A program made the position numbers and the translations under genes. A model generated the notes under the pieces. It was not told the DNA's origin. It made no database searches and saw only the letters and a program-made list of their open reading frames with translations. A stretch of 64,000 nt of DNA from Cytophagales bacterium. Its GTDB lineage: Bacteria > Bacteroidota > Bacteroidia > Cytophagales > 172606-1. Below, one piece after another: positions 16,570 to 61,055 of the stretch (position 1 is its first letter; each line of letters starts with the position of its first letter). The stretch covers positions 62,001 through 126,000 of the forward strand of contig JAUJMU010000008.1 of assembly GCA_030446715.1 (NCBI GenBank), read 5' to 3'.

Positions 16570-16665
16570 GGCTGTATGGTTAAATTGTTTAACTGTTAAA
16601 CTGTTAGGTGGCTGTGAGGCCATAGTCAGATAACCGGCTGCATACAACCATTCAACCATTCAGCC
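16570..16665. repeat. Imperfect palindromic repeat with short tandem heptamers
   Basis: GGCTGTATGGTTAAATTG at the left and the reverse complement of CAACCATTCAACCATTCAGCC at the right are alike, and AACCATTC is repeated in tandem at about 16646-16660. Repeats with such words can act as slippage sites. It fills most of the gap before the next gene. Function is unknown. Confidence 0.4.
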
Positions 16666-16722
16666 ATATAACCTTTCCTGTCAATACAGCTGGCAGATTG
16701 TTGTTTGGTAATCGAAAACAGA

Positions 16723-19488: not shown

Positions 19489-19932
19489 TCACTGACTCTC
19501 AGAAGGATTGCCAAATTCATCCTCGTAGGCCAGTTTGTTTTCGCCGTCATACAGCCTCAGGTAGTCAACCGAACCGGTTCCTTTAAAGCCCAGGCTGATC
19601 CCCTTTATGGCTCCTATGTCCTTGTTATAGGAGAGTTGCCTGATCAGTTCGTCCTCAAAAAATATTTTAACCTTTTTACGCCTGACCTCAATGCGGATGC
19701 TGCGCCAGCCGGTCAGGTCCCTGCCGAACTTGCTCAGGTTATGAAACACCCCCTTCATGCCTACTTCCGCAAAGTTCAGCTTGACGTATTTGGTAGATCC
19801 CGGTTTTACGAATACTACGTTTGCCCTGGAATGCTTCCCGGTCACCTCGATCAAAGCATCAAAACAGGGAACACCCCCTTCTGAAGCGGGAACTTTGATT
19901 CTGGTTTCCAGCAGAAAATCATCGCACGGATA
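19489..19932 (-). pseudogene. C-terminal fragment of a concanavalin-like (LamG-like) domain protein
   Basis: The minus frame is open from just inside a TGA at 19935-19933 to the stop at 19489. It reads DFLLETRIKVPASEGGVP, ANVVFVKPGSTKYVKLNF, WRSIRIEVRRKKVKIFFED and GISLGFKGTGSVDYLRLYDG, the late strands of a jelly-roll fold related to DUF1080/LamG domains. There is no ATG and no signal peptide; the N-terminal half is missing. Its 5' end collides with the 5' end of another truncated gene on the other strand at about 19925. It is a leftover of a secreted glycan-related protein. Confidence 0.65.
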
Positions 19933-33477: not shown

Positions 33478-34089
33478 ATGTACAAAGCGTATACTCACTG
33501 CTCTGACCGGGAGATTTGGGCGGCATTCCGGAGCGGAAGTGAGGAAGCGTATTCGTACATGTACAGTCATTTTGTAAGCATTCTTTTCCGGTACGGTACC
33601 AAACTCAGTTCGGACCGGGAGCTGGTAAAAGATGCCATTCAGGATATGTTTGTGTATTTGTGGGCCAGTAAACACAAACTCTCCCCGACGGATTCCATTA
33701 AGTACTATCTTTTCCGCGTGCTCCGACGCGGCATCCTGGCCCAAAAACAATTGGCTATTCAAGCCTCCTCCGCCTTCTGGGTAGAGATTCTGCTTGCGGA
33801 GTCGAATCCTTCCGTTGAGCAGGAATTAATTGAGCAGCAGCAGGATCAGGCAAAAAAGCAACGATTGGCGGATGGGATCGGGCAACTGCCCCTGCGGCAG
33901 AAAGAAGCCGTATTCCTCCGCTTCTACGAGAATTTAGCGTACGCCCAGATTGCCGAAATAATGTCCATCAGCCCGCGTGCGGTGTATAAGCTGATCTACA
34001 AGGCCATTGACGCCCTGCAAAAAAACATGCTTCCCGCCCTTGCCGGCCTTTTGCTGCGGTGCGCTTTCCTGGAACTGCCGATGGCCTGA
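33478..34089 (+). CDS. ECF-type RNA polymerase sigma factor (PUL-associated)
   Basis: This 203-residue sigma factor has region 2 (RSGSEEAYSYMYSHFVSILF, DAIQDMFVYLWASKHKL) and region 4 (LPLRQKEAVFLRFYENLAYA, QIAEIMSISPRAVYKLIYKA). In Bacteroidota such factors pair with a FecR anti-sigma and an STN-bearing SusC, exactly the genes that follow. When the SusC meets its glycan, the signal passes through STN to FecR and frees the sigma factor, which transcribes the PUL. The gap to the FecR gene is 165 bases. Confidence 0.92.
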   Translation: MYKAYTHCSDREIWAAFRSGSEEAYSYMYSHFVSILFRYGTKLSSDRELVKDAIQDMFVYLWASKHKLSPTDSIKYYLFRVLRRGILAQKQLAIQASSAFWVEILLAESNPSVEQELIEQQQDQAKKQRLADGIGQLPLRQKEAVFLRFYENLAYAQIAEIMSISPRAVYKLIYKAIDALQKNMLPALAGLLLRCAFLELPMA

Positions 34090-34254: not shown

Positions 34255-35262
34255 ATGGAGAGCTACGAGAATTTTACCGTGCGTGAATTTGTACTGGACG
34301 AGCATTTCCAGCGGTGGGTGCAGTTCGGGGAGAACCCCGCCTTTTGGGAACAATGGGTAAGTGAGCATCCCCAATGCCGGGAAACAGTAGCGGAAGCCCG
34401 GGAAACGGTACTCCTGCTGTACCAGGATGAGGATGAACTGGATCCGGTCGAAATTAACGCAATGTGGCAGCTCATTAAATTCCGCAGGCAGTCAGAAACC
34501 GCGCCGGTGTACGCCCCCGGGTGGAGAAACTGGCAGCGGGCAGCCGCCGTCATCACGTTGCTGCTGGCAGCAGCCGGCAGTTTCTACTTCTTCCAGGTAT
34601 TCCGGCCCCAGCCCCTGGTTTATCAGGCCACTCATCAGCCGCGGACGCTTACGCTACCCGATGGCTCATCGGTCGTTTTAAACGCCCATTCCCGGCTTAC
34701 GCTGACTCCCGGTTGGAATGAGCAGCAAAGCCGGGAGGTGTGGCTGGAGGGAGAAGCTTATTTTGAGGTAAGCCGCGCCAAAAATGCCCGAAACACTTTT
34801 GTAGTACACGCTTCCGGTTTAAACGTCCGGGTGCTGGGAACCACCTTTAACGTGTGGCAGCGGCAGCGACAAACCAAAATTGTACTCAGTTCGGGCAAAA
34901 TCCGGCTGGATGGGGAAACGATTACCCAACCCGTAGTCATGACGCCGGGGGAAATCGTGGAATTAACCGGGCAGCCATCCCGGCCGGTACCCCGCAGGGT
35001 GGATGCGCGGGTGTATACCTCCTGGAAGGATAACCGCCTGATTTTCGTCGAAACGCCCCTGAGTGAGGTGGCCAGGGTGATCCAGACGCGTTACGGCTAC
35101 AACGTTCAGGTTACGGACAGTACGGTATTGACGGAACAGATCACCTTCAAGCCGCTTACCGATGATTTTCAGGTACTGCTGCGGATGCTTTCGGAGTCTT
35201 TCCAGGTGGAGGTAGACCCGGCAGCCCGGCAGATTACGATCAGAGGCAATTCTCCGAAGTAG
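34255..35262 (+). CDS. FecR-family anti-sigma factor
   Basis: The 335-residue protein has a cytosolic N-terminal anti-sigma part (VREFVLDEHFQRWVQFGENP), one membrane helix at about residues 93-112 (AAAVITLLLAAAGSFYFFQ), a periplasmic FecR domain (RTLTLPDGSSVVLNAHSRLT, REVWLEGEAYFEVSR, FVVHASGLNVRVLGTTFNVW) and a C-terminal DUF4974 domain (NRLIFVETPLSEVARVIQTR, ITFKPLTDDFQVLLRMLSES) that contacts the STN of the partner SusC. It lies between sigma factor and SusC, 21 bases before the latter, in the usual order. Confidence 0.93.
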   Translation: MESYENFTVREFVLDEHFQRWVQFGENPAFWEQWVSEHPQCRETVAEARETVLLLYQDEDELDPVEINAMWQLIKFRRQSETAPVYAPGWRNWQRAAAVITLLLAAAGSFYFFQVFRPQPLVYQATHQPRTLTLPDGSSVVLNAHSRLTLTPGWNEQQSREVWLEGEAYFEVSRAKNARNTFVVHASGLNVRVLGTTFNVWQRQRQTKIVLSSGKIRLDGETITQPVVMTPGEIVELTGQPSRPVPRRVDARVYTSWKDNRLIFVETPLSEVARVIQTRYGYNVQVTDSTVLTEQITFKPLTDDFQVLLRMLSESFQVEVDPAARQITIRGNSPK

Positions 35263-35283: not shown

Positions 35284-38200
35284 ATGACGCACCACTTACG
35301 CCCGTCGCTGCTGAGGCAAGCTCTCCGCAAAAAGCTATTCCTGCTGTTGTTCATGGGTTCCACCGGGTTTCCGGCCCTTGCCCAATCCTTTGCCTACCAC
35401 GCCCCGGAAGTAAATTCCCTCCAGGAAAAAGGGCAACTTTCGCTGAAAGACGCCTTGTTAAACCTGGAGAACCGTTTTCGGGTGGTGCTCGGCTACAAGA
35501 AAAACCTGGTCCATAACCAAACCGTGGCGGCTGGCGCCTGGCAGCGGGAAAAGGATGTTGAGCTGGCCCTGAAGGAACTGCTGGCGCCCCTGAACCTGGT
35601 GTATAAGCAGATTGGCGACAAGACTTACGTCATCAAAGCTAAACCTAAAGAAACGTCCCTCCCCAAAAGTACGTCCTGGTCGCAGCCCTCGGAAGGTTTG
35701 CCCGCGGCGGAAGGGTCTTCCACTCCTACTGCCTCCGTTGACCAGTCACCCCCCGCAGATATTGCGGTTACGGGCCGGGTTACGGCCCAGGCAACGGGAG
35801 AGGGCTTACCCGGCGTGAGTATACTCGCCCGGGGCTCCACCAACGGTACCACCACGGATGCCGATGGCGCCTATTCCATCCGGGTAGCTGACGCGAAAAC
35901 GGTACTTTCCTTTTCCTACATCGGTTACGTAACGGAGGAAGTAACAGTGGGCGCGCAAACCACCATTCACGTGAGCCTGGTAGCCGATATCAAAGCCCTG
36001 AGTGAAGTAGTAGTGGTAGGTTACGGCACCCAGAAAAGAAGTGACCTGACCGGATCGGTGGGCTCCGTCTCAGAAAAGGATCTGAAAAAAGTTTCGATGG
36101 CCTCCCTCGACCAGGGCCTGCAAGGGCGGGTGGCCGGCGTGCAGGTGAGTCAGACCGGGCAACCCGGTGGTGGGGTGAATATTCTGATCCGGGGCCAAAA
36201 CTCCATCTCCAGCGGCAATGCGCCCCTGTACGTAGTGGACGGCTTTCCCATCACCAACGACCAGATTGCCGACAGCAAAGATGTAAGCGATTTCCGGGCT
36301 TCCGGCTCCCAGAATCCATTGGCCGGCATCAATCCCAATGACATCGAATCCATCGAAATTCTCAAAGACGCTTCGGCCACGGCCATCTACGGTTCCCGGG
36401 GCGCCAACGGGGTGATTCTGATCACCACCAAACGGGGCAAACCGGGAAAAGCCAGCGTTGAGTACCAGGGTTACTACGGCGTTCAGCAGGCAGACCAGAC
36501 CTTAGACCTGATGACTTCGGCCGAATACGCAAACCTGTACAATGAGGCGGCCGAAGCGGATGGGAAAACAAAACTATTCGGGGACGGAGAACTGCCGGCG
36601 CCGGATGCCCTCACCACCCATACCGATTGGCAGGACGAAGTATTCCGGTTAGCACCTATTCAGGACCATCAGCTTTCGGTAACGGGCGGGAACGAGTTCG
36701 GGCGGTACCTGGTGTCGGGCAACTATTACGATCAGCAGGGCATTCTGTTGGGATCGGGATTGAAAAGAGGATCGCTGCGCAGCAATATTGACTTTGAATT
36801 TTTAAACCGGGTAAAAGCAGGCACCAGTCTGATGATTACGCGCAGCGCAAAAGACGTGGCCCAGATCGGCGGCAACCGGTTGGATGGACACGTTTCTACT
36901 ACCGCTTCTGCCCTTACGGTACCCTCGTATTTGCCCGTCAGACTGGAGGACGGTTCGTACGCACAGTTCAACATCAGCGGGATTTCGAATCTTCCCCGGG
37001 ACAACCCGGTGGCTATTTCGAATGAGCTAACGGATGATCAGCGTGATACGCGCATTCTGGCGAGTGCCTACGCAAGCGTGGAAATTCTGAAAGGGCTTAC
37101 GTTTAAAGTAAGTCTGGGCGGTGACCTCACCCATTCGGAAAGAAATTTTTACGTTCCCCGGACCCTGGTGGAAGGAGCCAATAAAAGCGGTTACGCAACC
37201 GTTACGATGCGCAGAAACCAATCCTGGTTAAACGAAAACATACTGAGTTACGACCGGGTGCTGAATAAGCACACCATCAATCTGGTGGGCGGCTATACGG
37301 TCCAAAAAGCCCAGAACAACTTAACCTCGATAGAAACTTCTAAATTTGGAACGGACCGGTTCGGGACCCATAACCTTTCGGCGGGAGAATTGCCCGGCAT
37401 TCCCGCAACCAATTTTTCGGAATGGTCCCTCCTTTCGTACCTGGGCAGGTTAAACTATACCTTCAACGGCAAGTACCTGCTTACGTTAACGGCGCGGACC
37501 GACGGCTCCTCCACCTTCGGTGAAAACAACAAATGGTCCTTTTTTCCGTCCGCGGCGGTAGCCTGGAAGTTGGGCAATGAACCCTTTATCCAAAACCTGG
37601 GCGTATTTGAACAACTAAAGCTCCGGGCCAGCTACGGCATCACCGGCAACAGCGGCGGACCTTACAAATCAATTGCCTTACTGGAAAATACGAACTACGT
37701 GTACGGCGGGCAGTTGGTGATCGGCTATTATCCCGGCGGGATCACCAACCCGGATTTGCGGTGGGAGACGGTTTCGGTACTGGATCTTGGCTTGGATATG
37801 TCTTTCTTAAGGGACAGAATTTCGGTTACGGCCGACTACTACCATAAAATCTCAAAGGACCTTTTATTAGCGGTTGCCGTTCCGTCCGTTTCCGGCTACT
37901 CCACGGCCTTGTTGAACGCCGGCAGTCTGGAAAACCGGGGCGTAGAAATTTCCGCGAATGCCGTAGCGGTAGAATCGCCGCTGAAGTGGGTAATTGGCGG
38001 CAACTTTTCGATCAACCGGAATAAACTGCTGTCGCTGGGAGATGCCAGAGAAGTAATCGGTACCCGCGTGATCGGTCAACCGCTGGGTTTGCTGCTGGGT
38101 TACCAGTACGACGGCGTGTTTCAAAATGAAGAGCAGCTGAGGGCCGGCCCCGTCCAAAAAGGCGACGTGCCGGGTAATGCCCGCTACGTGGACCAGAACG

Positions 38201-38712
38201 GGGACGGCACCATCAACGCCGAGGACCGGGTGATTACCGGCAACACCAATCCCGATTTCATCTACGGCCTTAACAATACCCTAACCTACAAAAACCTTGA
38301 GCTTTCGCTGTTTTTGCAGGGCATGTACGGGCACGACGTGGAGAACTTGACTTACAACGTGCTCTCCCGCATGGACCCCAACACCAACCAGCTCCGGGCA
38401 GTGGCCCAGCGGCGGTGGACGCCCGAAAATCCGGATACGGATATCCCGCGGGCCGCTTTCGGCACCAGCAACCGGGCCCATTTAAACTCTACCCGCAACA
38501 TTGAAAAAGGTTCTTACTTACGGGTAAGAAGCGTCCGGTTAACCTATAATCTCAATCTGGCCAGGTTCTTCAAAACATCCCGAATTTACCTGAGCGGGCA
38601 GAATGTGTACACTTTTACCCGGTACAGCGGGGTCAATCCGGAGCTTGACCGTGAAGAATACGCTTACCCCCTGGCCAGACTCTATACGGTCGGACTGGAA
38701 CTGGGATTCTGA
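35284..38712 (+). CDS. susC: SusC-family TonB-dependent glycan transporter with STN domain
   Basis: This 1142-residue outer-membrane protein imports oligosaccharides with its SusD partner, using TonB energy. Signal peptide to about residue 33 (STGFPALAQ). The STN signalling domain is at about 45-118 (LSLKDALLNLENRFRVVLGY, VELALKELLAPLNLVYKQIG), which marks it as a sensor for the upstream FecR/sigma pair. A carboxypeptidase-D-like domain follows (VTGRVTAQATGEGLPGVSIL), then the SusC box VVVVGYGTQKRSDLTGSV, the plug (ILIRGQNSISSGNAPLYVVD, YGSRGANGVILITTKRG) and a C-terminal barrel ending YPLARLYTVGLELGF. A Pro/Ser-rich linker of about 35 residues separates STN and the next domain. The frame is intact. 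SusD follows after 128 bases. Confidence 0.95.
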   Translation: MTHHLRPSLLRQALRKKLFLLLFMGSTGFPALAQSFAYHAPEVNSLQEKGQLSLKDALLNLENRFRVVLGYKKNLVHNQTVAAGAWQREKDVELALKELLAPLNLVYKQIGDKTYVIKAKPKETSLPKSTSWSQPSEGLPAAEGSSTPTASVDQSPPADIAVTGRVTAQATGEGLPGVSILARGSTNGTTTDADGAYSIRVADAKTVLSFSYIGYVTEEVTVGAQTTIHVSLVADIKALSEVVVVGYGTQKRSDLTGSVGSVSEKDLKKVSMASLDQGLQGRVAGVQVSQTGQPGGGVNILIRGQNSISSGNAPLYVVDGFPITNDQIADSKDVSDFRASGSQNPLAGINPNDIESIEILKDASATAIYGSRGANGVILITTKRGKPGKASVEYQGYYGVQQADQTLDLMTSAEYANLYNEAAEADGKTKLFGDGELPAPDALTTHTDWQDEVFRLAPIQDHQLSVTGGNEFGRYLVSGNYYDQQGILLGSGLKRGSLRSNIDFEFLNRVKAGTSLMITRSAKDVAQIGGNRLDGHVSTTASALTVPSYLPVRLEDGSYAQFNISGISNLPRDNPVAISNELTDDQRDTRILASAYASVEILKGLTFKVSLGGDLTHSERNFYVPRTLVEGANKSGYATVTMRRNQSWLNENILSYDRVLNKHTINLVGGYTVQKAQNNLTSIETSKFGTDRFGTHNLSAGELPGIPATNFSEWSLLSYLGRLNYTFNGKYLLTLTARTDGSSTFGENNKWSFFPSAAVAWKLGNEPFIQNLGVFEQLKLRASYGITGNSGGPYKSIALLENTNYVYGGQLVIGYYPGGITNPDLRWETVSVLDLGLDMSFLRDRISVTADYYHKISKDLLLAVAVPSVSGYSTALLNAGSLENRGVEISANAVAVESPLKWVIGGNFSINRNKLLSLGDAREVIGTRVIGQPLGLLLGYQYDGVFQNEEQLRAGPVQKGDVPGNARYVDQNGDGTINAEDRVITGNTNPDFIYGLNNTLTYKNLELSLFLQGMYGHDVENLTYNVLSRMDPNTNQLRAVAQRRWTPENPDTDIPRAAFGTSNRAHLNSTRNIEKGSYLRVRSVRLTYNLNLARFFKTSRIYLSGQNVYTFTRYSGVNPELDREEYAYPLARLYTVGLELGF

Positions 38713-38840
38713 TCCGCAAGGAGACACCAGATTTTAGTATCGAGACATAAGACATAAGAATGGTATTGATCCTGTTTTCAGCTAACCGCTAAAAGCCAAT
38801 GACTCTCTACTTACCCGGTATTTCTACTAAACGTAAAAAA

Positions 38841-40355
38841 ATGAGCACAATCCACCGATTCCACAGATACTTCCTTGCGGGACTGCTACTCGTGCTGGGC
38901 ACCGGGTGCGGGAAAGATTTTCTGGAAGAAAAGCCCCGCTCCAACATCCGGCTTGAAAATTTCTACGCCAACGAAAGCGAAGCCTTTGCCGGCGTGGTGG
39001 CCGCCTACGATGTAATCGGCAAGAACGACTACTATATCAATATTTTAAGGCTGGCCGATCTTCCTACTGACCTGGCCCGCAACAACGCCTTTGACCCGCT
39101 GAATGAATTTTCGTGGGATGCCAACAACGGCACAATTGGAGAGTTCTGGACCGCGTCCTACAGCGGGATCGGCCGGTGCAACGTGGCCATCAACCGCATC
39201 AGCAAGGCTGCGTTCGATGAAGGGGCCAGAAACCGCCTGATCGCCGAAGCCCGGTTTCTGCGGGCCTGGTTTTATTTCACGCTGGTTAAGTTTTTCGGCA
39301 ACGTCCCCCTCATTGATTTTGAAATAAACACCCTCGAAGCCCTCGATAAGGTTTTTACTACCTCCAACGTGAACACCCACGAGCAGGTATGGAATCTGAT
39401 TTTCGCGGATTTGTACTTTGCCGAGCAATACCTGCCCGACACGCCCCCTCAGCCCGGCCGGGTAACCAAACTGGCGCCCAAGGCGCTGCTGGTGAAAGTT
39501 TTTCTGCAGCGCGCCGGACTGGCCACCCACAACAAAGCCAACGCTGCCTTGTGGGGCGTGGAAAACGTAAGTCCGCAGGAATGGGATTCAGCTTATTACC
39601 GGGCAAAGGCAATCATCGATAACAAAGCGGCCTTCGGGGTTGACCTGTTTGCTGATTTTACCCACAACTTTATATACAGCCAGAAGAACGGCAGGGAGCA
39701 TATTTTTTCCATCCAGAAAGAAACCGTCGGCTTTGAAGCCATCGGTTCCTGGGTCAATGCCATTACCTCTCCGGATTACATGCAGGGCCGGTATCAATTC
39801 GCGGGAGAACTTGCCCTGAACCAGTTGTGGATCAGAGAAGGCGATACCGCGAAAGACGTCCGGTACCAGCATTCGCTGATTGTGAGCTATACGAAGGGGA
39901 GAACGACGGTGAAGCTCGGCGATTCAAAATTAAGGTACCCGCTGGCCGGCAAATACCTGATCGGCACGACTGCCGAAACGGAACGGATTACCCACGCGAA
40001 CCTGAACATACCTATCCTGCGGTACGCCGATGTACTGCTGTCTTTTTCCGAAGCTGCCAACGAGATGGGCGCCGCGGATCGCTACCGGGGGATCAATGAG
40101 GTAAGAAACCGGGCGAAACTTCCTCCTTTAGCCGGTTTAGGCCAAGAAAGCTTCCGGCAGGCGATTATTAATGAGCGAATCTTTGAGCTGTGCTTTGAAG
40201 GGCACGGCCACAGCGATTATACCCGGCACGGAATTTTAGTGGAGCGGAATCAGAAAGCCGGCTATAAAGTAGAAAGTTTCCAGCATGTTTTCCCGATTCC
40301 GCTCAGTGATATTCAGCTGTACCCGTCCGTGCTCAGGCAGAATACGGGCTATTGA
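38841..40355 (+). CDS. susD: SusD/RagB-family glycan-binding lipoprotein
   Basis: From ATG 38841 (MSTIHRFHRYFLAG) the product is about 504 residues with a lipobox ending TGC near residue 23, followed by GKDFLEEKPRSN. SusD signatures are NAFDPLNEFSWDANN, ARFLRAWFYFTLVKFFGNVP, the TPR-like middle and the C-terminal block LRYADVLLSFSEAANEMG and VFPIPLSDIQLYPSVLRQNTGY. It caps the SusC barrel at the cell surface and captures glycan. The frame opens 14 codons earlier, but no signal is there. Pairs with the SusC at 35284. Confidence 0.93.
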   Translation: MSTIHRFHRYFLAGLLLVLGTGCGKDFLEEKPRSNIRLENFYANESEAFAGVVAAYDVIGKNDYYINILRLADLPTDLARNNAFDPLNEFSWDANNGTIGEFWTASYSGIGRCNVAINRISKAAFDEGARNRLIAEARFLRAWFYFTLVKFFGNVPLIDFEINTLEALDKVFTTSNVNTHEQVWNLIFADLYFAEQYLPDTPPQPGRVTKLAPKALLVKVFLQRAGLATHNKANAALWGVENVSPQEWDSAYYRAKAIIDNKAAFGVDLFADFTHNFIYSQKNGREHIFSIQKETVGFEAIGSWVNAITSPDYMQGRYQFAGELALNQLWIREGDTAKDVRYQHSLIVSYTKGRTTVKLGDSKLRYPLAGKYLIGTTAETERITHANLNIPILRYADVLLSFSEAANEMGAADRYRGINEVRNRAKLPPLAGLGQESFRQAIINERIFELCFEGHGHSDYTRHGILVERNQKAGYKVESFQHVFPIPLSDIQLYPSVLRQNTGY

Positions 40356-40467
40356 TTTGGGACTGTTATCCGGCTTTGCACTGACGGTGATTGCCCGTCA
40401 GCCGTAAAGATTGCCCGCCCGACCCCTAAAATGTAGTTTCCCGATTGCGCTTAACCAAACAGAAACC

Positions 40468-40917
40468 ATGAAGACTACCTACGTGCTATTGACCTTCCTC
40501 CCGGTATTGCTTACCGGGGGCTTACTCACGGGCTGCCAGGAGGAAGCAGCGGTGGACAGCCCACGGGCTTGTTTTGATATTTTCGTCGAAAGTGCGCCCG
40601 GTGAACGTCAGCCCGCTGAGACGGCTAAAGTGGGCAACAACGTCATCTTCGTGTTATGCAGCCCGGCCAGGAGATATACCCTCTGGACGGGCGACCAGGG
40701 GCATGATATCAACGGTTCCAAAGTAGCTTATGATGAGAAAAAAAAGACGGCTGATCCGCTGAATACCGGCTTAAACATCAACGTAGCAGACGGAGAAATT
40801 GCCTACAAATACCGCCAACCCGGTACGTATGCGGTTGCCCTGATCGCTACCAACGTGGTGTACGCCGGGGAAGTGAAAACCGATACCCTCTTTAAAACCA
40901 TTACCATTACCAAGTAA
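40468..40917 (+). CDS. Small PKD-like lipoprotein of PUL 1
   Basis: From ATG 40468 the product is 149 residues: lipoprotein signal with lipobox LLTGC near residue 23, then one immunoglobulin/PKD-like domain (NNVIFVLCSPARRYTLWTGD, INVADGEIAYKYRQPGTYAV, VKTDTLFKTITITK). Such small surface lipoproteins often take the SusE place in a PUL and may help bind glycan. The longer frame from 40411 begins before the signal peptide and is not supported. It lies 112 bases after SusD and 50 before the first CBM protein. A specific role cannot be given. Confidence 0.75.
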   Translation: MKTTYVLLTFLPVLLTGGLLTGCQEEAAVDSPRACFDIFVESAPGERQPAETAKVGNNVIFVLCSPARRYTLWTGDQGHDINGSKVAYDEKKKTADPLNTGLNINVADGEIAYKYRQPGTYAVALIATNVVYAGEVKTDTLFKTITITK

Positions 40918-40967: not shown

Positions 40968-41984
40968 ATGAAGCACATTCACCGTTCGCCCTTTATCAAC
41001 GTATTGCTGGCTGCTACGCTGTGCCTGGGCCCACTGCCCGTTTGCCAGGGCCAGCAAACCGCCGCTACCGGGGCTTCTTCCAAAAGCCAGGTCAGGAGCC
41101 ATCCCCCGAAGACTGAGCAGCTATGGCTGGAGGCCGAAAGCGGAAAGATCAGCCTGCCGCTCCGGTTGGGAAAAGACGAAGCGGCCTCGGGCGGGCAACA
41201 CATTTACATGCCGGCCGGCAAAGCTACTTACGCCTTTACCATTGCCAAACCGGGCACTTACAGAGTATGGGGGCGGGTACTGGCTACGGGCGGCGCCGAT
41301 AATTCGTTTTTCATCAGCATGGATGGAGGCGAGAAGTTTAAGTGGAACCACAACGCACTCAAAAGCACCTGGCAGTGGGAGGCCGTGAAAAATGACAAAC
41401 TCAAAGAAGTGGCTCAATTCAAATTGGCGGCCGGCAACCATACGTTGACCGTGGGGTATCACGAAGACGGCTCCAGGTTTGATCAGTTATTGATCACCGA
41501 TGACTTGCAACTGAACCCGGCTGCCCAGGCCACGAGTGCGGCCACCACCCTCTACCTGGAGGCCGAAAACGGCAACGTAACCCCGCCGATGCAGGTTGAA
41601 GAACAGGCGGCGGCTTCCGGCGGAAAATACGTGTGGATTCCCGATCAGTTCAGCACGTACGAATTCGAGGTAGCCGAGCCGGGCACGTACAAAGTATGGG
41701 GGCGGGTGCTGGCGGCGGATGGACACGCCGATTCTTTTCTGGTAAGTATCGATGAGGGCCAATGGGTGAAATGGAATGATCTTCCGCGGGGCAATGCCTG
41801 GGTGTGGGACGATGTACACGCTAAAACCAATACGCCCGAAAACACCGTCACCTTCAACCTGACTGCGGGCAAGCACACTTTAAAGATCAAGCAACGGGAA
41901 CCGGGTACCCAGCTTGACCGGCTTCTGATCACCAATGATCTGTCTTTTAAACCCTCCGGCGCCGGCCGCCTCGCCGGCAATTGA
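40968..41984 (+). CDS. Secreted protein of two tandem carbohydrate-binding modules (no catalytic domain)
   Basis: The 338-residue product has a signal peptide (VLLAATLCLGPLPVCQGQ) and two copies of one beta-sandwich module of about 130 residues: LWLEAESGKISLPLRLGKDE at about 47 and LYLEAENGNVTPPMQVEEQA at about 190. Each copy has TYRVWGRVLA or TYKVWGRVLA, a SF(F/L)VSID-type strand, WQWEAVKND or WVWDDVHAK, and a closing LDRLLITNDLSF. No catalytic pocket motif is seen. The module recurs in the next gene and in the remnant at 19926. It probably binds glycan at the surface or outside the cell. It ends 16 bases before the next gene of the same type, so the pair may have arisen by duplication. Confidence 0.8.
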   Translation: MKHIHRSPFINVLLAATLCLGPLPVCQGQQTAATGASSKSQVRSHPPKTEQLWLEAESGKISLPLRLGKDEAASGGQHIYMPAGKATYAFTIAKPGTYRVWGRVLATGGADNSFFISMDGGEKFKWNHNALKSTWQWEAVKNDKLKEVAQFKLAAGNHTLTVGYHEDGSRFDQLLITDDLQLNPAAQATSAATTLYLEAENGNVTPPMQVEEQAAASGGKYVWIPDQFSTYEFEVAEPGTYKVWGRVLAADGHADSFLVSIDEGQWVKWNDLPRGNAWVWDDVHAKTNTPENTVTFNLTAGKHTLKIKQREPGTQLDRLLITNDLSFKPSGAGRLAGN

Positions 41985-41999
41985 TAAAACCGCATTCTC

Positions 42000-43598
42000 A
42001 TGAAACCAATCCTGTCTTTTTGGATAAGCTGTTTGTTAGCTACCCAGGTTGCTTCAACGCAAGCGCAAAACGCAGCGGATGCAAAGCCCGGAGAACAAGA
42101 CCATGTGTATCTGAGCCTGGAAGCGGAAAACGCCGATTTAGCTGCTCCGATGGAAAAAGTAACCGACGCCGGCGCATCCGGTGGCGCTTACATCTGGGTT
42201 CCCGACGGGTATGCCCGTTTGGATTTTGAGGTGCCGGAAGCCGGCAGCTACCAACTGTACAGCCGGGCTCTGATTCAAAAAGAGGGCGATGCTTTCTATT
42301 TCCGGATCGACAAGGGTCCCTGGACCAAATGGAAGGGCTTGAAAGCAGGCGATGCCTGGCAATGGAACCTGATGCGTGACGACCAGACGAAGCAGGCCTT
42401 GCGCACAACCCTTGCGGCCGGTCCGCATTCCCTGGACGTAACCTATCACGAAAACGGGGCCAAATTAGATGGGATCTTGCTTACGGCGGATGGGCAGTTC
42501 AACCCGGCCAGGGCAGTTTCGTTCAATGCGAAAGCAAAAGACGGGAAGCATATCCGGCTGGAAGCGGAAAAGGCGGCTTTAAATGCGCCCATTGCCGTGG
42601 CGGCCCATCCCAAAGCTTCCGGGGACCGGTACATCGAGGTGCCCAACGGCATTACTCGCTTGACTTTTTCCATTCCCAAAGCCGCAACCTACACCCTCTG
42701 GGGAAGGGTACTCGCGCCTAAAGGCAATGACGATTCGTTTTGGGTGCGGGTAGACAACGGCAACTGGATTGAATGGAACGGCATTCCCCCGAGTCCCGCC
42801 TGGCAATGGGCGCCGGTACATGATAAAAAACCAGCGCAGATTGTTCGCCTTCCCCTCCCGGCCGGAACCCATACGCTGACGTTCCGGCAACGGGAAGACG
42901 GCTGCAAACTGGACAAACTGCTGCTGACGGATGACCTTTCTTTTAAGCCTGCGGAAAAAGCGCCTTTGGTGCTCCGGGAAGAAATCAGCCTCACGGGTGA
43001 AAAGACTGCGGCTGGCTATGCCATCAAAGCCCGCAGCGGAAAGTTTGTGCCAAACGGCTGGCAATCCACCGATACGCTGAGCCAACTGAAAGTAAGTTTA
43101 ACGGACGGATTCAAGCCGGGCCAGGCGGGAGCCATTGAACTGGAAGTAACCAACTTTGATATTATTTCCCAGGCCAATGGACGCAAGAATCACTTCTTCA
43201 ACGTATACGGCATCGGGTCCGGTAATTCGTTTGAGGCTAATTCCGGAGAGCCCTTTATCAATTTCAGGGCCGGAAAGCAAAAGTACGGCAACGAAAGAGG
43301 CCAGGGAATAAAACTCTTATGGGCGGCCCGCGGGAAAGATTCCCGGGAGGAAAAAGCGCCTTTCGCGGTAAGAAAGAGTTGGGACCCCAGGGCTACCTAT
43401 ACCTGGCGGGCCGAATGGACTGATTCGGAACTGACCTGTTACCTGGAAGGAGAAAAGATCTTTGGCCCGGTAGAATTTGGGCAGCGTACCGGTGAGCTGA
43501 AATACGTTTTTCTCTCCACCGATGGTATCGGGAAAATCTGGTTTGCCTTTCCGGGTCCGATTTATAAAAAACTAAAGGTCTACCGGGCCCTTCCGTAA
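42000..43598 (+). CDS. Secreted two-CBM protein with C-terminal concanavalin-like domain
   Basis: The 532-residue product has a signal peptide (LSFWISCLLATQVASTQAQ), two modules of the same type as the preceding gene (VYLSLEAENADLAAPMEKV and IRLEAEKAALNAPIAVAAHP, with TYTLWGRVLAPKGNDDSFWV) and a 190-residue C-terminal jelly roll (SQLKVSLTDGFKPGQAGAIE, NHFFNVYGIGSGNSFEANSG, YTWRAEWTDSELTCYLEGEK, LSTDGIGKIWFAFPGPIYKK). The jelly roll resembles lectin-like or lyase-like sandwich domains; catalytic residues could not be assigned, so a cryptic lyase or hydrolase is possible. It lies between the first CBM protein and a DUF5060 glycosidase in the PUL 1 operon. Confidence 0.75.
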   Translation: MKPILSFWISCLLATQVASTQAQNAADAKPGEQDHVYLSLEAENADLAAPMEKVTDAGASGGAYIWVPDGYARLDFEVPEAGSYQLYSRALIQKEGDAFYFRIDKGPWTKWKGLKAGDAWQWNLMRDDQTKQALRTTLAAGPHSLDVTYHENGAKLDGILLTADGQFNPARAVSFNAKAKDGKHIRLEAEKAALNAPIAVAAHPKASGDRYIEVPNGITRLTFSIPKAATYTLWGRVLAPKGNDDSFWVRVDNGNWIEWNGIPPSPAWQWAPVHDKKPAQIVRLPLPAGTHTLTFRQREDGCKLDKLLLTDDLSFKPAEKAPLVLREEISLTGEKTAAGYAIKARSGKFVPNGWQSTDTLSQLKVSLTDGFKPGQAGAIELEVTNFDIISQANGRKNHFFNVYGIGSGNSFEANSGEPFINFRAGKQKYGNERGQGIKLLWAARGKDSREEKAPFAVRKSWDPRATYTWRAEWTDSELTCYLEGEKIFGPVEFGQRTGELKYVFLSTDGIGKIWFAFPGPIYKKLKVYRALP

Positions 43599-43652: not shown

Positions 43653-45326
43653 ATGACCTTAGTCCATTCCGCGTTGACCATTCCCGCTTATTCCTTCCGT
43701 TACTTCATCAACCCTGCACTCATTCGCCTGGCAGCAGCAATACTGGTATGGGCTTATGGGCATAATCCGGCTGTAGGCCAAACCCGTACCGTGCCCAAAT
43801 GGTCGGTGCACGAAATTGTGCTGGCTGCCCAGCAATCTTATGCTGATGCCTACCGGGAGGCCAGTGTTAAGGCTACCATTACGGGACCGGGCGGCATTCA
43901 AAAAGAAGTAAACGGCTTTTGGGACGGAGAAAACCGGTTTGTAATCCGTTTTACGCCTACCCTGGAAGGAACGTGGAAATATACTACCCATTCGGCTGAT
44001 GCGGGCTTAAACCGTAAGAGCGGCTCCATTACCTGTACGGCAAACCGTCCGGGGACGCATGGTTTTCTGCGCCGCGATGAACAATACCGCTACCATTTCA
44101 AATACGACGACGGTACCCGTTACTTCATGTTCGGACAAACGTATTACGGCCTTCTTTCTTATGCCAAATCAGGCGGCAACTGGCGGACATCCATTGACAG
44201 TACGCTGATCCAGGGGATGAATAAGGTCAGAATGCACATCAACGGCGGATTAAGTGAAGCGTCTACTCCTGAATTTGTCAGCACGGGAATGAGTGATAGT
44301 GGCAACGCCTTGAATCTGGCGCATTTCCGGAAAGCCGACGAAGTAATCGGATACATGAACGACCGGGGGATGATCGCCGACCTGATTGTGTTTCCCCGCA
44401 AAATACTGGGTACGCAGCAGGACGAAGAAAGGTATTTACGTTACATCATTGCCCGCTACGCGGCGTATCCGAACGTGATCTGGTGCCTGATCAACGAGTG
44501 GAATTATTCTACCCGTCCGAAAGAGTTCTGGAATATCATGGGCCGCCTCACCAAAAAAGAGGATCCCTGGGCCGTGGAAGGAAAAACCGTCCGCTTGCTT
44601 TCCGTGCATCAACGTACCCGCATTGATTTTGAGTTCTTCGGCCAGCCGTGGCTCTCGCACGCCATTATTCAATACGGGGTACGCAACAAGCAACAAACCA
44701 ATGACGACAGCGAATGGATTAAAACCGGTAAGACCAAATACCGCAACGGCGACGAATGGGGCAACGCCAGCATTGTCTATAACCTGGGCCACAACCTGCC
44801 GGTCGTAAACGATGAATACGGTTACATTGGCGAACACCGCGATGTCAGCGTAGGAGGGAAGGATACTGTGGCCATGACCCGCGAAAAACACCGGCAGATT
44901 ATGTGGGGCATTTATGCGGCGGGTGGTTATGCCGCCGCCGGTGATAAATACTTATACCCGGATGGCGGCAGACCTTACATGACGGGTAAGTGGCAAAACC
45001 CTGAAGAATATACGGACATAAGAAACCTGGTTGATTTCTTTACCAAAAAGAAGTTTGCCTACTGGCAGATGAAAAGTCACAATGCGTTTGTTAAGTCCGG
45101 AAACCGGACCTATGTGTTGGCACAGCCCGGTAAGCAGTACATTATTTATGCAGCCACCGGCGGAACGTTTTCGATAGACCTGCCGGAGGGTACCTACGAA
45201 GCGGGGCGTTTTAATCCTGCCACCGGGGAAGATACGCCCCTGAAAGACGTAAAAGGCGGGAAAACAACCTCATTCAGCTTGCCGGATACCCAGGATTGGG
45301 TCGTGTATTTACGCACTACCGGATAG
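43653..45326 (+). CDS. DUF5060-containing clan GH-A glycoside hydrolase
   Basis: The 557-residue product has a leader with a hydrophobic segment (ALIRLAAAILVWAYGHNP), an N-terminal DUF5060 sandwich (VPKWSVHEIVLAAQQSYADA, VNGFWDGENRFVIRFTPTLE), a TIM barrel with WCLINEWNYS (likely acid/base Glu) and PVVNDEYGYIG (likely nucleophile Glu), and a C-terminal sandwich that resembles the putative collagen-binding domain of apiosidase-like proteins (FSIDLPEGTYEAGRFNPATG). The family includes enzymes on plant cell wall and algal glycans. Substrate unknown. It follows the CBM proteins by 54 bases and precedes the sulfatase by 66. Confidence 0.8.
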   Translation: MTLVHSALTIPAYSFRYFINPALIRLAAAILVWAYGHNPAVGQTRTVPKWSVHEIVLAAQQSYADAYREASVKATITGPGGIQKEVNGFWDGENRFVIRFTPTLEGTWKYTTHSADAGLNRKSGSITCTANRPGTHGFLRRDEQYRYHFKYDDGTRYFMFGQTYYGLLSYAKSGGNWRTSIDSTLIQGMNKVRMHINGGLSEASTPEFVSTGMSDSGNALNLAHFRKADEVIGYMNDRGMIADLIVFPRKILGTQQDEERYLRYIIARYAAYPNVIWCLINEWNYSTRPKEFWNIMGRLTKKEDPWAVEGKTVRLLSVHQRTRIDFEFFGQPWLSHAIIQYGVRNKQQTNDDSEWIKTGKTKYRNGDEWGNASIVYNLGHNLPVVNDEYGYIGEHRDVSVGGKDTVAMTREKHRQIMWGIYAAGGYAAAGDKYLYPDGGRPYMTGKWQNPEEYTDIRNLVDFFTKKKFAYWQMKSHNAFVKSGNRTYVLAQPGKQYIIYAATGGTFSIDLPEGTYEAGRFNPATGEDTPLKDVKGGKTTSFSLPDTQDWVVYLRTTG

Positions 45327-45392
45327 TTTACCTGAAGAAGCGAATGGACTGCTACTCCGGATTGATTGGCTGAAGAAAAACAATGTTTCATA

Positions 45393-47162
45393 ATGAAAGA
45401 GAAAATAGTGATGAAATTGCTAAGACTGCCCTTATTGTTCTTAACCCTGTTTCTCGTATTGGCAGGGATGGTTATGAAGCCGGCTCAGCCCAATATCCTG
45501 CTTATTCTTACGGATGATCAGGGCTGGGGCGATTTCAGCGGTAACGGCAACCCCATTCTCAAGACGCCCCATATTGACCGGCTAGCCAGGGAAGGGGTTC
45601 GTTTCGATAAGTTTTACGTGTCTCCCGTCTGTTCGCCAACCCGGGCCAGTTTGCTTACCGGGCGCTACCACATCCGCACCGGAACCTCGGGGGTAAGTCA
45701 AGGCAAGGAAACCATGCGGGCTACCGAAGTTACCCTGGCCGAAGCCTTGCAGCAAGCGGGCTACCGTACGGGTGCTTTTGGTAAATGGCACAATGGCGAA
45801 CATTATCCAGAAGATCCCAATGGTCAGGGGTTTGACCATTTCTTTGGGTTTTTAGGCGGGTATTTTAATTTTTATTTTGATCCCGAACTAAACCGGAATG
45901 GGGAGCAGGTTAAAACGAAGGGATATATTACCGATATCCTCACGGACTCGGCCATGTCATTTATGAAAGAAAGCCGGCAACAGCCTTTCTTTTGTTATTT
46001 GCCGTACAATGCCCCCCATTCGCCTTTTCAGGTGCCCGATAAGTATTTCAAAAATTATCAGCATAAGGGCCTCGATACGAAAGACGCCAGCATTTATGCC
46101 ATGTGCGAAAGCATAGATGACAACGTGGGCCGCCTGATGGCCTTCCTGGAAACGGAAAAGCTGGCCGCCAATACCATTGTTGTATTTATGACGGATAATG
46201 GGCCGGCTACTGCCCGCTATAACGGAAACCTGAAAGGGAAGAAGTCTTCCATGGATGAGGGCGGAACCCGGGTGCCGCTATATATCCGGTGGCCCGGGAA
46301 GCTTAAGGCCGGTCTGCAGGTGTCGCGGCTAAGCGCCCATATTGATGTTTTTCCTACTTTATTAGAATTGTGCGGCCTGTCTTTGCCCAAAGGGCCTGCC
46401 CTGGATGGTAAGAGCCTAGTGCCGCTGCTGGAAAACGCGCAAGCAGCCTGGCCTGACCGCATGTTGTTTACCAACGTGGGTAATGAAGTGCCCAGCGCCG
46501 TTCGTACCGAAACCCACCGGCTGGTGCGCGGAAAAGAGGGGCAAGTGGCGCTTTACGATATTTCAAAAGACCCTTTCCAGCAGCAAGACATCGCCAAACA
46601 AAACCCGGCTTTGGTGCAGCAACTAACGGCTGCCTATACAAAATGGTACCAGGAGGCAGCAAAAGGCACCAAAAAAAGCGCACCCATTGCGGTAGGCTAT
46701 GATCAGGCAACAACGGTCATACTACCGGCTACGGAGGCACGTTTTACCGGCAAAATTCATTATAAAGGCAAAAAAGGTTATTCGCACGACTGGCTTACCG
46801 GCTGGCAGTCAGTTGAGGATACTATTTCCTGGAAAATAAAAGCCGTCAAGCCCGGCCGGTACCAGGTAAGCATGCGGTATACTTCCTGCCCGGCACAAAA
46901 TATTGGTACCAGCATTCAGGTACAAGTGTTGGATAAAGCTATTACCACTACCATCAGCCAGCCTTTTGACCCGGAAGCCTATCAGATTCCCAACCGGGTG
47001 CCACCTACCGCCGGAGTGGAAGAAAAACCTTTTACCACGGTTGACTTTCAGGAAACCATTTTCATACCGGCCGGAGCGCATACGCTGCTTTTACAGGCAA
47101 GCAAGATCCCGGGTTCGGAAGTGGCAGACATGAAAAGCATAGAGCTGACCAAAGTGGAGTAA
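45393..47162 (+). CDS. Secreted sulfatase with extra C-terminal sandwich domain
   Basis: From ATG 45393 the product is about 589 residues; ATG 45411 is an alternative, and both keep the signal helix (LPLLFLTLFLVLAGM). The sulfatase core shows NILLILTDDQGWGDFSG, the formylglycine motif CSPTRASLLTGR (Cys near 80), GKWHNGEHYPED, MTDNGP and SSMDEGGTRVPLYIRWPG. About 140 further residues form a C-terminal sandwich (WKIKAVKPGRYQVSMRYTSC, IFIPAGAHTLLLQASKIPGS), as in sulfatases that have an added binding module. It removes sulfate from the PUL 1 glycan. Last gene of the PUL 1 operon, convergent with the PL8 lyase gene. Confidence 0.9.
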   Translation: MKEKIVMKLLRLPLLFLTLFLVLAGMVMKPAQPNILLILTDDQGWGDFSGNGNPILKTPHIDRLAREGVRFDKFYVSPVCSPTRASLLTGRYHIRTGTSGVSQGKETMRATEVTLAEALQQAGYRTGAFGKWHNGEHYPEDPNGQGFDHFFGFLGGYFNFYFDPELNRNGEQVKTKGYITDILTDSAMSFMKESRQQPFFCYLPYNAPHSPFQVPDKYFKNYQHKGLDTKDASIYAMCESIDDNVGRLMAFLETEKLAANTIVVFMTDNGPATARYNGNLKGKKSSMDEGGTRVPLYIRWPGKLKAGLQVSRLSAHIDVFPTLLELCGLSLPKGPALDGKSLVPLLENAQAAWPDRMLFTNVGNEVPSAVRTETHRLVRGKEGQVALYDISKDPFQQQDIAKQNPALVQQLTAAYTKWYQEAAKGTKKSAPIAVGYDQATTVILPATEARFTGKIHYKGKKGYSHDWLTGWQSVEDTISWKIKAVKPGRYQVSMRYTSCPAQNIGTSIQVQVLDKAITTTISQPFDPEAYQIPNRVPPTAGVEEKPFTTVDFQETIFIPAGAHTLLLQASKIPGSEVADMKSIELTKVE

Positions 47163-47383: not shown

Positions 47384-50116
47384 TTATTTCTGAATGATTA
47401 CTTTCCTGCTAATTGTGCCTTCGGGCAAGGTAATGTGAATGACATACAGGCCGCTGCTCCAATCGGAAGCATTTACTTTCAGGTGATTAATGCCTTTAGT
47501 TACGGGTACAACAGTTATTTGTTTTACCACATCCCCTTGACTATCAACGATTCTTAGCTTGGCGGGTTGAATGGAAGTGGCCGGAAACGTGAGGGTAAAC
47601 TCTCCTTTGACCGGGTTGGGCGATATAGTTACCGCATTGTCTGCTTCACCGGAAAGGGAGTCATCAAGGCTTTGACGGACCGGCGAAGTCAGACTAAATT
47701 TAGCCCGGTACGTTTTCCCGCCCGAGGCATTCACATTAACGGATAGCTTAATGGTAGGACTTAACTGAAGAACAGTAATCCGGGCATTTTTAGAGATTGT
47801 ACTATAAGCCTGCTTGTTTACTTCTATTTCGATGGTTCCGGTATTTTGTTGGGTGGGGTCGGCCACGGCAATTTCAATGTCTTCGCTATTCTCATCTACC
47901 ATCATGGAAGCACGTTTGTTACACGTAATAAAGGCCGGGTAGTTGGTTCCAACATCCACCGTTGCTACTGCATCCTGCCAGAAATTAGCCGCGATCAGGT
48001 TAAGTGTATTCTCCTTGACGGCTTGTACCTCACTGGTATTTTTTAGAATACTTACGTGCGGGGCTGCCGCGTAACTGCTCACCTGGCTGCTGGATTTGCC
48101 CGGCAAGAGTACATAGCCGTAAGTCTGATTGGTTGGTGTAATGCCGTGGTCCAGCCATAACGTCAGATAATTTCTGGTATAACTCGTCGCGTCAACGCCA
48201 CTGTTTTGATTAATGTCCAACCATTTGCCCGTGCGGGCTTCCCGTACCGCTTTTACGGTAGTTGCCACCGGAAAGAAGTATCCAATGTCGGCGCCGGCTA
48301 CGGTACCCGCAAGATGTGCCCATTTTACCTCGGTCATGGTTTCTGACCATCCTATGCTTGTGGATTTTGCCGTGCCGTTCACAGTCAAGGTATTATTGCC
48401 GCTGCTGTTAATTTTGCGGTTCTCTACTACTGTTTCTACTACTTTAGCGTCAACGGTGGAAATACCGGCCCCTAAAGCTACTACCTCATCGTCAAACATA
48501 AACCAGGATTTCCGGGCATACAGATTGCCCACGTGCAGCCGCATACCGGTTACGCCATAAATGCCGCCGATAGCTACTCCCCCAACCCAGGGATCATCGC
48601 TGGTACGGCCAGGACTCGCGGTAGTGGATTGCAGGACGGTGGTACCCGGCAGACGGTACGCATCTACTGTCGGCCAGTAATTGTCACTGAACTGCCCCAA
48701 GTCATTGTTGTACAGGTAAGTCATGCCATCGCCGGTGTGCCATCCGCGGGTATTTTCATTGTTAATACTTTCGTAATTATAAATCCGGCTTGAATGCAGG
48801 CTCAGCCCCAGGCCGAATCCCGGACGCAAATGCACTACCCGGTCCATGGCGTAAAATCGCTTGTGTTTTACCAATTCTCCCCTGGGAGTAATACTGGCGT
48901 CGGCCATAATGGCTTTGTACCGGACCAACTTATAGATGGTGCTTGGAGTATACGTACGGAAATTATCTGCTTGCACCCAGTACTTAACCATTCGTTTCAG
49001 GGCTAACGCCGGGTTTGCAGGATAGCCCGAGCCAATACTGGTAGTGGGAGCGGATTGTGATAAAAAGACAACTGCATCAATAACATTATGCCCCTTTTTG
49101 TGTTCTTCAGCCCCGGACCGGGCAATTTCTCGCCCCTCCAGCATTGCCATCAGGCCACCTTTGTACAAAACGGATTCAAATGAATCAAACACCCATTTGT
49201 ACACATTATTATTCGTTACCTGCCAGGGCGATCCTTTTAATACTTCCATTATTTCCGGAAGCGTACTGATCATGGTGGTACCATACCCGCCGGTATAGGC
49301 ATACTTTCCGTGCTGCACAAAAGAGCCGTCCGCATAAAATCCGTCTCCGGAAGTTACGTAGTCAAATACAGGACTAAGGGCCGTTTGGGCACTTTCTACC
49401 TTGCACTGACTTTTGCCTACTACCCCCCGCAGCAGCACTACTTTGCACTTCCAAACCCGGTTGGCTCCCGTGGAAGTTCCTGCATTATAACTGTATCTGG
49501 TTGGATCAGGGCTAGACCGGTCAATAGCTTTTACGTAGTTGTTAATCTGGGTTGCCGTAAGGTCACCGTACATCAGCACCATCAGATCGTTGAGGGAAAA
49601 CGGAATAGATAACTCCCATTCGTACCAGTTACCCGTGTAGGGCCTGGTCTCGTTGTACCAATTGGCGTACAGCCAGTCCATGGCCTGTACAATGTCGGTC
49701 TTTAACGTTGCATTTCCCTCTAGAGAGGAACCAGTAGTAGCATAAGCTACCGCCATTTCCCGTAATCGGTTGTAGGTTTCATTTACATTCGACCCGCTGT
49801 TTTTATCGGTATACCCACTCCACAAATAGGCCCTCTCGCTGCTTTTATCCATACTGTTCCACAGCGAGTTAGCCCGGTTTTCAATAAAATCAATTTTAGC
49901 TGCTATATCGGGGTCACCAATGTTAATAGATGCGCCTCCGGTTAAAAGCGTGTAGTGCTTCTCCCGCATCAGATCATAGTCATCCGCTAATACTGCTGGT
50001 ACAGGTATGACCCAGGCCAATAGTAAAAAAGCAAGCCGGTAGAAACTGCTGCCGGCCCTTTCATTTTTCAAAGCAAGACCATTAGCGATAGATGCGGAGA
50101 GTAAATAGTTTTTCAT
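47384..50116 (-). CDS. PL8-family polysaccharide lyase with T9SS sorting domain
   Basis: From ATG 50116 (MKNYLLSASIANG) the product is about 910 residues. After the signal (FLLLAWVIPVPAVLAD) comes an alpha/alpha toroid (LREMAVAYATTGSSLEGNAT, WYEWELSIPFSLNDLMVLMY) and the PL8 catalytic region GDGFYADGSFVQHGKYAYTG with the His and Tyr, then NNENTRGWHTGDGMTYLYNN with the Asn/Arg/Glu set. A large beta-sandwich part follows, and the C-terminus is a T9SS type A domain (VTISPNPVKGEFTLTFPATS to SRKVIIQK). The family includes hyaluronate, chondroitin AC and xanthan lyases, which cut next to uronic acid by beta-elimination. It is secreted by T9SS. Base composition looks lower in GC than its neighbours. 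Operator site 3 faces it across 690 bases that hold nested mobile elements. Confidence 0.9.
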   Translation of the reverse strand: MKNYLLSASIANGLALKNERAGSSFYRLAFLLLAWVIPVPAVLADDYDLMREKHYTLLTGGASINIGDPDIAAKIDFIENRANSLWNSMDKSSERAYLWSGYTDKNSGSNVNETYNRLREMAVAYATTGSSLEGNATLKTDIVQAMDWLYANWYNETRPYTGNWYEWELSIPFSLNDLMVLMYGDLTATQINNYVKAIDRSSPDPTRYSYNAGTSTGANRVWKCKVVLLRGVVGKSQCKVESAQTALSPVFDYVTSGDGFYADGSFVQHGKYAYTGGYGTTMISTLPEIMEVLKGSPWQVTNNNVYKWVFDSFESVLYKGGLMAMLEGREIARSGAEEHKKGHNVIDAVVFLSQSAPTTSIGSGYPANPALALKRMVKYWVQADNFRTYTPSTIYKLVRYKAIMADASITPRGELVKHKRFYAMDRVVHLRPGFGLGLSLHSSRIYNYESINNENTRGWHTGDGMTYLYNNDLGQFSDNYWPTVDAYRLPGTTVLQSTTASPGRTSDDPWVGGVAIGGIYGVTGMRLHVGNLYARKSWFMFDDEVVALGAGISTVDAKVVETVVENRKINSSGNNTLTVNGTAKSTSIGWSETMTEVKWAHLAGTVAGADIGYFFPVATTVKAVREARTGKWLDINQNSGVDATSYTRNYLTLWLDHGITPTNQTYGYVLLPGKSSSQVSSYAAAPHVSILKNTSEVQAVKENTLNLIAANFWQDAVATVDVGTNYPAFITCNKRASMMVDENSEDIEIAVADPTQQNTGTIEIEVNKQAYSTISKNARITVLQLSPTIKLSVNVNASGGKTYRAKFSLTSPVRQSLDDSLSGEADNAVTISPNPVKGEFTLTFPATSIQPAKLRIVDSQGDVVKQITVVPVTKGINHLKVNASDWSSGLYVIHITLPEGTISRKVIIQK

Positions 50117-50206
50117 GGAGCAGAAGAGTTGAAGCTGATCAGGGTAAGGGTACACGACAGCATATTGGTAAACGTAGGTGTATATTAGGAGTTACGCACA
50201 TTAGGA

Positions 50207-51046: not shown

Positions 51047-51293
51047 CTTAATTATTGTGTATTGTTAAATGTGGATTAATATGTATTTTAAGGGAATAGA
51101 CTGCTGAGGGAAGCAGGATCAGCCGTTCCCTTTTTATGCAGTGGATGGTCTGTTACTAAGTAGTTCCCCGGATTTATTTAGACGGGAAGTGGATGGGGCT
51201 GCCGGTCAGGATTTATAACCATGTAAATAATAAATATAATTATTGTGCCCGGTTCTCAGAAAGTACTCATTCTCCTTTTCAACCACTACCCCC

Positions 51294-54200: not shown

Positions 54201-54418
54201 GCTTCGGTTACTCCCTGCCCGCAGCGGCCGCTAAAAAAATATTCCTTGGCCGCCTCCGGGTGTACGCCAATGTTCAGAATGCCTGGATTTTCACCAGGTA
54301 TCTGAATTACAACCCGGAAGCCAGCTTCGGACAGGATAATCCCCTGACGCCGGGCGTGGATTTAGGCGGTTACCCGCTCAACCGGATGTATACTTTAGGA
54401 ATTACCGTAGGCATTTAA
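51294..54418 (+). pseudogene. susC: SusC-family transporter of PUL 2, split by one frameshift
   Basis: ATG 51294 starts a SusC without STN: signal (LTLIAVMGLSTSVLAQ), carboxypeptidase-D-like domain (VSGKVTAQESGSGLPGVNVL), SusC box EVVVVGYGTQKRGDVTGSVA and plug (RVRGTGSIGAGNEPLYVIDG). The frame ends at TGA 52338 after GGTEKPGT, where the family reads GGTEKTRYLISGSYFNQEG. Restoring one A to the A-run at 52324-52328 joins this to the barrel, open to 54418 (ending YPLNRMYTLGITVGI). All the rest is conserved and the SusD next to it is intact. The break may be a sequencing error in a homopolymer, a recent mutation or a slippage switch. If real and fixed, PUL 2 import would be lost. Confidence 0.85.
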
Positions 54419-57404: not shown

Positions 57405-57458
57405 ACGGCGGGATACGAAACCGGCGCCGGTAAATTTCAGATAACCTTTCCCTGATGT

Positions 57459-59339: not shown

Positions 59340-59414
59340 CCACCGCCCCATGAACCCGATGTCCCTCTCTTCCCGCCGTGATTTTATTACTGAAATAATA
59401 AAAACCTTACTGCC

Positions 59415-61007: not shown

Positions 61008-61055
61008 TTTATCATTTTACGCACCGCATTGCCTTCATTGATTATCCAATACGCC

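Follow-up and report, generated by a model that had tools for sequence, protein, structure and literature searches.

In Sus-type loci, non-catalytic glycan binding is usually the task of cell-surface lipoproteins. The locus described here carries, downstream of a SusC-SusD pair, two consecutive genes whose products (p1 and p2) are built around CBM35-like modules, and it raises the question of whether these proteins are a surface set standing in for SusE and SusF, as a sequence-only reading had proposed, or parts of another kind. The locus lies in a window of 64,000 nucleotides, the whole stretch of DNA analyzed, which belongs to contig 14 of a Cytophagales genome of 6.4 Mb. The genes concerned are:

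33478-34089, + strand: ECF-type sigma factor (Pfam Sigma70_r4_2, 7.3e-13)
34255-35262, + strand: FecR-type anti-sigma factor (Pfam FecR, 1.6e-15; FecR_C, 3.2e-7)
35284-38712, + strand: SusC-type TonB-dependent transporter (TIGR04056, 3.5e-265)
38799-40355, + strand: SusD-like lipoprotein (SusD_RagB, 8.9e-23; SusD-like_3, 7.1e-22)
40411-40917, + strand: small lipoprotein in the SusE position, weakly PKD-like (lipobox LTGC, then QEEAA)
40968-41984, + strand: p1, 338 aa, signal-like N-terminus and two CBM35-like modules
42000-43598, + strand: p2, 532 aa, signal-like N-terminus, two CBM35-like modules and an orphan C-terminal region
43653-45326, + strand: putative glycoside hydrolase (Pfam DUF5060, Collagen_bind_2; PDB 4n0r, 2.3e-25)
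45366-47162, + strand: sulfatase with C-terminal extension (Sulfatase, 3.2e-68)
47384-50155, - strand: PL8 lyase, xanthan-lyase-like, with T9SS tail (Lyase_8 domains, Por_Secre_tail)

The + strand genes follow one another in the order ECF sigma factor, FecR, SusC, SusD, 40411, p1, p2, hydrolase and sulfatase, with 165 bp between sigma factor and FecR; onward to the sulfatase, the ORFs in their listed extents lie 15-86 bp apart. The search turned up no orthologous locus, so that conservation cannot back this operon logic; at E ≤ 1e-70, SusD matched one of 390 genomes, its own, in a search that scored at most three candidates per genome and may miss weaker orthologues. A weak match to STN (1.1e-4, below the Pfam cut-off) suggests that the SusC protein may be a signaling transporter. 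The 40411 protein matches PKD domains at 0.05-0.06, below the cut-offs, and its gene likely starts with the ATG at 40468. Hints to the substrate disagree: the top PDB match of the PL8 enzyme, which lies on the opposite strand beyond the sulfatase, is a xanthan lyase (6f2p, 1.4e-249), while that of the sulfatase is a kappa-carrageenan sulfatase of the S1_16 type (2.4e-72). We therefore limit the substrate call to a glycan that is probably acidic.

Several other features surround these genes. The extension of the sulfatase (approximately residues 445-598) shows weak Golvesin_C and DUF5077 matches, below cut-offs. A second SusC gene (51243-54418) occupies two frames, split near 52.3 kb either by a genuine frameshift or through an error in sequencing. 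Further genes, many of them sugar-related, lie at 12381-17847 and 55902-63008, including GH10-like, DUF7133/HEAT/cytochrome c, weakly GH43-like, apiosidase-like and alginate-lyase-like (with DUF6250) proteins, a glucose/sorbosone dehydrogenase with cytochrome c and a SASA esterase.

The window holds five copies of one module, two each in p1 and p2 and one in a remnant near 19.9 kb, as the sequence-only reading had it:

41112-41522, + strand: module p1a (p1 residues 49-185)
41544-41957, + strand: module p1b (p1 residues 193-330)
42102-42509, + strand: module p2a (p2 residues 35-170)
42543-42953, + strand: module p2b (p2 residues 182-318)
19899-20981, + strand: remnant, 5'-truncated, with CARDB, module m3 (20256-20702, residues 120-268) and T9SS tail

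The five modules share 36-46% pairwise identity. With profiles built from the module pair of one protein, the other two scored 139-268 bits, compared to at most 10.1 bits across 3000 residue-shuffled proteins, and a 59-row profile detected exactly five copies in the whole 6.4-Mb genome at E ≤ 0.01, with all 33 candidates scored. The motifs by which the module had been recognized, among them VWGRVL and a terminal LLIT(D/N)DLS, hold as a consensus but not to the letter, p2a reading LYSRAL and ILLTADGQ and p1a LLITDDLQ. The description of p1 as two modules and nothing else is right as to the modules, which cover 275 of its 338 residues; the remainder comprises an N-terminal segment, which is signal-like, and a linker and tail that are both short. 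In the remnant, the single copy sits between CARDB and the T9SS tail. Two 5'-cut genes meet at about 19.9 kb (19489-20981), this remnant and an ORF on the - strand, of which the genome contains five further relatives (frames of 285-476 aa); a deletion across a divergent gene pair would explain both cuts.

The idea that the modules are CBM-like is supported by the predicted fold of p1b and by calcium-type residues in all five copies. The structure prediction that had been suggested as a check, run for p1b on the 59-row alignment of modules from the window and from the named loci described below, yielded a model with a mean pLDDT of 93, folded as a two-sheet β-sandwich of the CBM35/CBM6/CBM36 kind (Foldseek, VIA), the fold also of 3zm8, 2cdp, 2wz8, 4qb2, 1w0n and 7zvo. 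Foldseek matched it to CBM35 and CBM6 chains at a probability of 1.00. The best VIA match was the CBM35 3zm8 (Z 17.0, 2.0 Å over 121 residues); 2cdp (Z 15.5, 1.9 Å over 116), 4qb2, a CBM35 with glucuronic acid (Z 15.0, 1.9 Å over 118), and the GH115 chain 5by3 (Z 13.6, 2.4 Å over 120) were matched as well. The CBM35, CBM6 and CBM36 chains named above span Z 13.0-17.0 at 12-22% identity. Insecticidal-toxin chains also occur among the VIA rows, and we took these to reflect a common fold and drew no relationship from them. The fold assignment is that of p1b; p2a and p2b are mostly modeled at pLDDT 57-82 within whole p2, for which the model from seven alignment rows reached a mean pLDDT of 48.

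Calcium-type residues are nearly invariant in the alignment (E6 in 58 of 59 rows, E8 and D125 in all 59) and recur when the set is loosened to 251 rows, with overlapping loci kept (E6 in 242, E8 in 241, D125 in 247). The resulting E-x-E...D pattern resembles the structural calcium site of BT0996-C (7zvo), for which the available text of the paper names Glu, Glu and Asp as calcium ligands (PMC9843283); the likeness is one of sequence pattern, without superposition. At other positions, the first modules deviate more from the common residues (K74 and H118 in p1a; A64, K78 and H118 in p2a) than the second modules, which retain W74, W77, N78, W88 and R118, with p1b deviating at position 66 (Leu, vs. 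Trp in 55 of 59 rows). The second modules may therefore be the better binders, although this is a guess.

Despite the predicted fold of p1b, the modules differ from the structurally matched CBMs in their profile matches. Neither Pfam CBM_35 (PF16990) nor CBM_6 matched any of the three proteins (p1, p2, remnant) at E ≤ 1. The only Pfam family above cut-off in p1 is GH115_C (PF17829; cut-off 24.1 bits), the C-terminal domain of GH115 glucuronidases, at 45 bits (1.4e-11); the remnant reaches 30.5 bits (3.9e-7), while p2 remains below the cut-off at 17.1 bits, and the GH115 catalytic family is absent from the Pfam matches of all three proteins. Searched singly against PDB sequences, p1 and p2 returned nothing below E 0.27, whereas module profiles reached 0.0012 for a xanthan lyase and 0.0023 for a Saccharophagus polysaccharide-binding protein. 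The modules are of a known kind, and what is unusual is the build of p1, a CBM-only protein.

Where do p1 and p2 reside? Both have a signal-like stretch at their N-termini. Neither shows a lipobox by pattern or by eye, with the proviso that the pattern is incomplete and missed that of SusD, recognized by eye as LGTGC-GKDFLEE; the cysteines at positions 19 and 26 of p1 and 11 of p2 were judged by eye not to belong to lipoboxes. A T9SS tail was matched in the remnant but in neither p1 nor p2 at E ≤ 1. Given the signal-like N-termini and the lack of both lipobox and T9SS tail, we read p1 and p2 as probable soluble envelope proteins. The hydrolase and the sulfatase likewise carry no T9SS tail, and no lipobox according to the pattern.

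A role of p1 and p2 in glycan binding at the surface, in place of SusE and SusF, is therefore unlikely in our view. They do lie downstream of SusCD, and their two-module build resembles that of CHU_1279 of Cytophaga hutchinsonii, an SGBP-B-like bimodular protein from a PUL-like cluster with a signal peptide and two CBM-like domains (PMC12016534), a likeness drawn from descriptions. However, by pattern and by eye neither p1 nor p2 has the lipoprotein signal with surface export signal expected of SusE/SusF, and p1 does not directly follow SusD, from which it is separated by the lipoprotein 40411. The latter is the better candidate for the lipoprotein of the SusE position and likely the surface partner, since it directly follows SusD and its LTGC-QEEAA roughly matches the acidic signals that direct Bacteroidota lipoproteins to the surface, as outlined in the available text of PMC5080379. 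Both the surface location and the replacement of SusE/SusF, as claimed earlier, are thus left unsupported, and a periplasmic pair is the more likely, if unproven, alternative. An unanchored appearance is, nonetheless, no proof of a periplasmic location, as CHU_1279 was reported to bind cellulose and to occur in the outer-membrane fraction, while the available text of that paper mentions a predicted signal peptide and does not contain the word lipoprotein (PMC12016534).

A second possibility, which we consider rather improbable, is that p2 is an enzyme with a catalytic C-terminal region, such as a jelly-roll lyase, its two modules being ordinary CBMs, and that p1 is a free extra copy of this CBM pair. 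The region in question is:

42972-43595, + strand: p2 C-terminal region, 208 aa, no recognizable relative

The jelly roll assigned to p2 next to its two modules could not be substantiated. The region matched nothing in Pfam at E ≤ 1 and nothing at E ≤ 1e-5 in 395 genomes except its own; a plasmid search gave no relative, and the region was modeled at pLDDT 21-35; a suspected relationship to the DUF6250 protein at 57459 was rejected, as there is no real match. Nothing in the region thus points to catalysis. What speaks for an enzyme is the company the module keeps elsewhere. A scan of genome contigs with two short peptide patterns yielded 69 named loci from Bacteroidota, Actinomycetota, Myxococcota, Chromatiaceae, Planctomycetota, Verrucomicrobiota and others, with 95 module-bearing stop-to-stop ORFs, 72 of which are uncut by the locus end. 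In these loci, the module forms part of larger proteins: among the 33 of 95 ORFs run against Pfam, picked among the shorter ones, 14 matched a T9SS tail, seven GH115_C, five GH28, two GH10 and one a glucuronyl esterase. The highest module share among the uncut ORFs, 51% (L138:8813-12034, 1074 aa; 64% among cut ORFs), equals that of p2 on the same stop-to-stop measure, while p1 reaches 76%.

Genome searches gave a similar picture. With up to 10 candidates scored per genome, the module was detected at E ≤ 1e-12 in 15 of 395 sampled Bacteroidota genomes, counting that of the window, and outside the own genome all module-bearing frames measure at least 314 aa. The 314-aa frame contains PKD-like sequence, one module and, by eye, a T9SS-like tail, and the other frames read also exceed a module pair. 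Searches with p1 matched one of eight genomes of the family, the window's own, and seven of 390 of the order, own included (at most five candidates scored per genome), with the other matches in frames of at least 647 aa; p2 matched three of 395 genomes of the class, own included (at most three candidates scored per genome). The family, order and class samples share genomes with one another, and each covers part of a larger group. A single-protein scan of genome contigs for close p1 homologues confirmed none of eight candidates, the only plasmid record matched by p1 encodes a Catenovulum protein annotated as GH115, and phages searched with p2b gave no match. The module family spans several phyla, where its hosts are larger proteins that are often secreted by T9SS. 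In T9SS proteins of Bacteroidota such as that of L075 (Chryseosolibacter histidini), and in contrast to p1, the module is combined with other parts into a longer protein bearing a T9SS tail. A CBM-only build like that of p1 was found neither among the 72 uncut ORFs of the named loci nor in the 395 sampled Bacteroidota genomes.

The fold as such shows no function, since the C-terminal domain of the GH115 enzyme BoAgu115A combines a role in dimerization with one in the substrate cleft (available text of PMC3879575). Quite improbable, however, is that the modules serve protein contact or structure and make p1 and p2 non-covalent subunits of the hydrolase or sulfatase rather than glycan binders, as would fit the GH115_C match of p1 and the inter-chain contacts of that BoAgu115A domain, whose removal abolished activity (same text), because several CBM35 and CBM6 chains (Z 15-17) outrank 5by3, the one GH115 chain among 50 VIA rows, and the hosts of the module elsewhere are varied.

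The relationship between p1 and p2 left a trace in their modules. His118 occurs in two of 59 rows, p1a and p2a, and in the same two of the looser 251, suggesting that p1 and p2 arose by duplication of a two-module gene. Gln117, tried as a corresponding mark of the second modules (two of 59 rows, p1b and p2b), proved weak, with five of the 251 looser rows carrying it, three of them in other organisms. A module tree with long branches does not group p1a with p2a or p1b with p2b, yet neither grouping is rejected (p-AU 0.193 and 0.157); the same holds for a group of all four p1/p2 modules (p-AU 0.176). A single local expansion giving rise to all five window modules was weakly rejected (single clade, p-AU 0.0318); the remnant module m3 groups with Chryseosolibacter and actinobacterial modules from enzymes or long proteins (98/64, not starred).

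In the same tree, p2a, p2b and p1b fall beside the C-terminal modules of M56 proteases (88/83, moderate, not starred), with p1a outside. Two BlaR1-like M56 proteases carry such modules C-terminally, two in L067:9452-11884 (- strand; Pfam 6.7e-33) and three in L068:8219-10447 (+ strand; Pfam 4.1e-28), and each adjoins a gene that by eye resembles a BlaI-type repressor; these could possibly represent a glycan-sensing version of BlaR1/BlaI. BlaR1 with CBM modules is not described in the titles and abstract openings of the literature searched. As three of the four p1/p2 modules stand beside those of M56 proteases near BlaI-like genes, there is a hint that this module branch may sense glycans in the envelope.

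Taken together, we see about an even chance that p1 and p2 are paralogous, exported tandem CBM35-like proteins that are unanchored in the periplasm and hold imported oligosaccharides for the hydrolase and sulfatase. SusCD would import oligosaccharides that are probably acidic, a property guessed from the likeness to CBM35 and the neighboring lyase; p1 and p2 would hold these or present them to the two co-encoded enzymes, and the ECF sigma factor would regulate the set. In the titles and abstract openings searched, a periplasmic tandem CBM35 pair is not described. That p1 and p2 constitute a new working part of SusCD loci, a soluble periplasmic pair born of duplication that retains imported oligosaccharides or reports to ECF/FecR, is a long shot. 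If the two proteins are another secreted or surface CBM pair, the finding is an ordinary one; if they act as proposed, this unanchored pair of CBM-only proteins would introduce a step within the envelope at which sugars are held.
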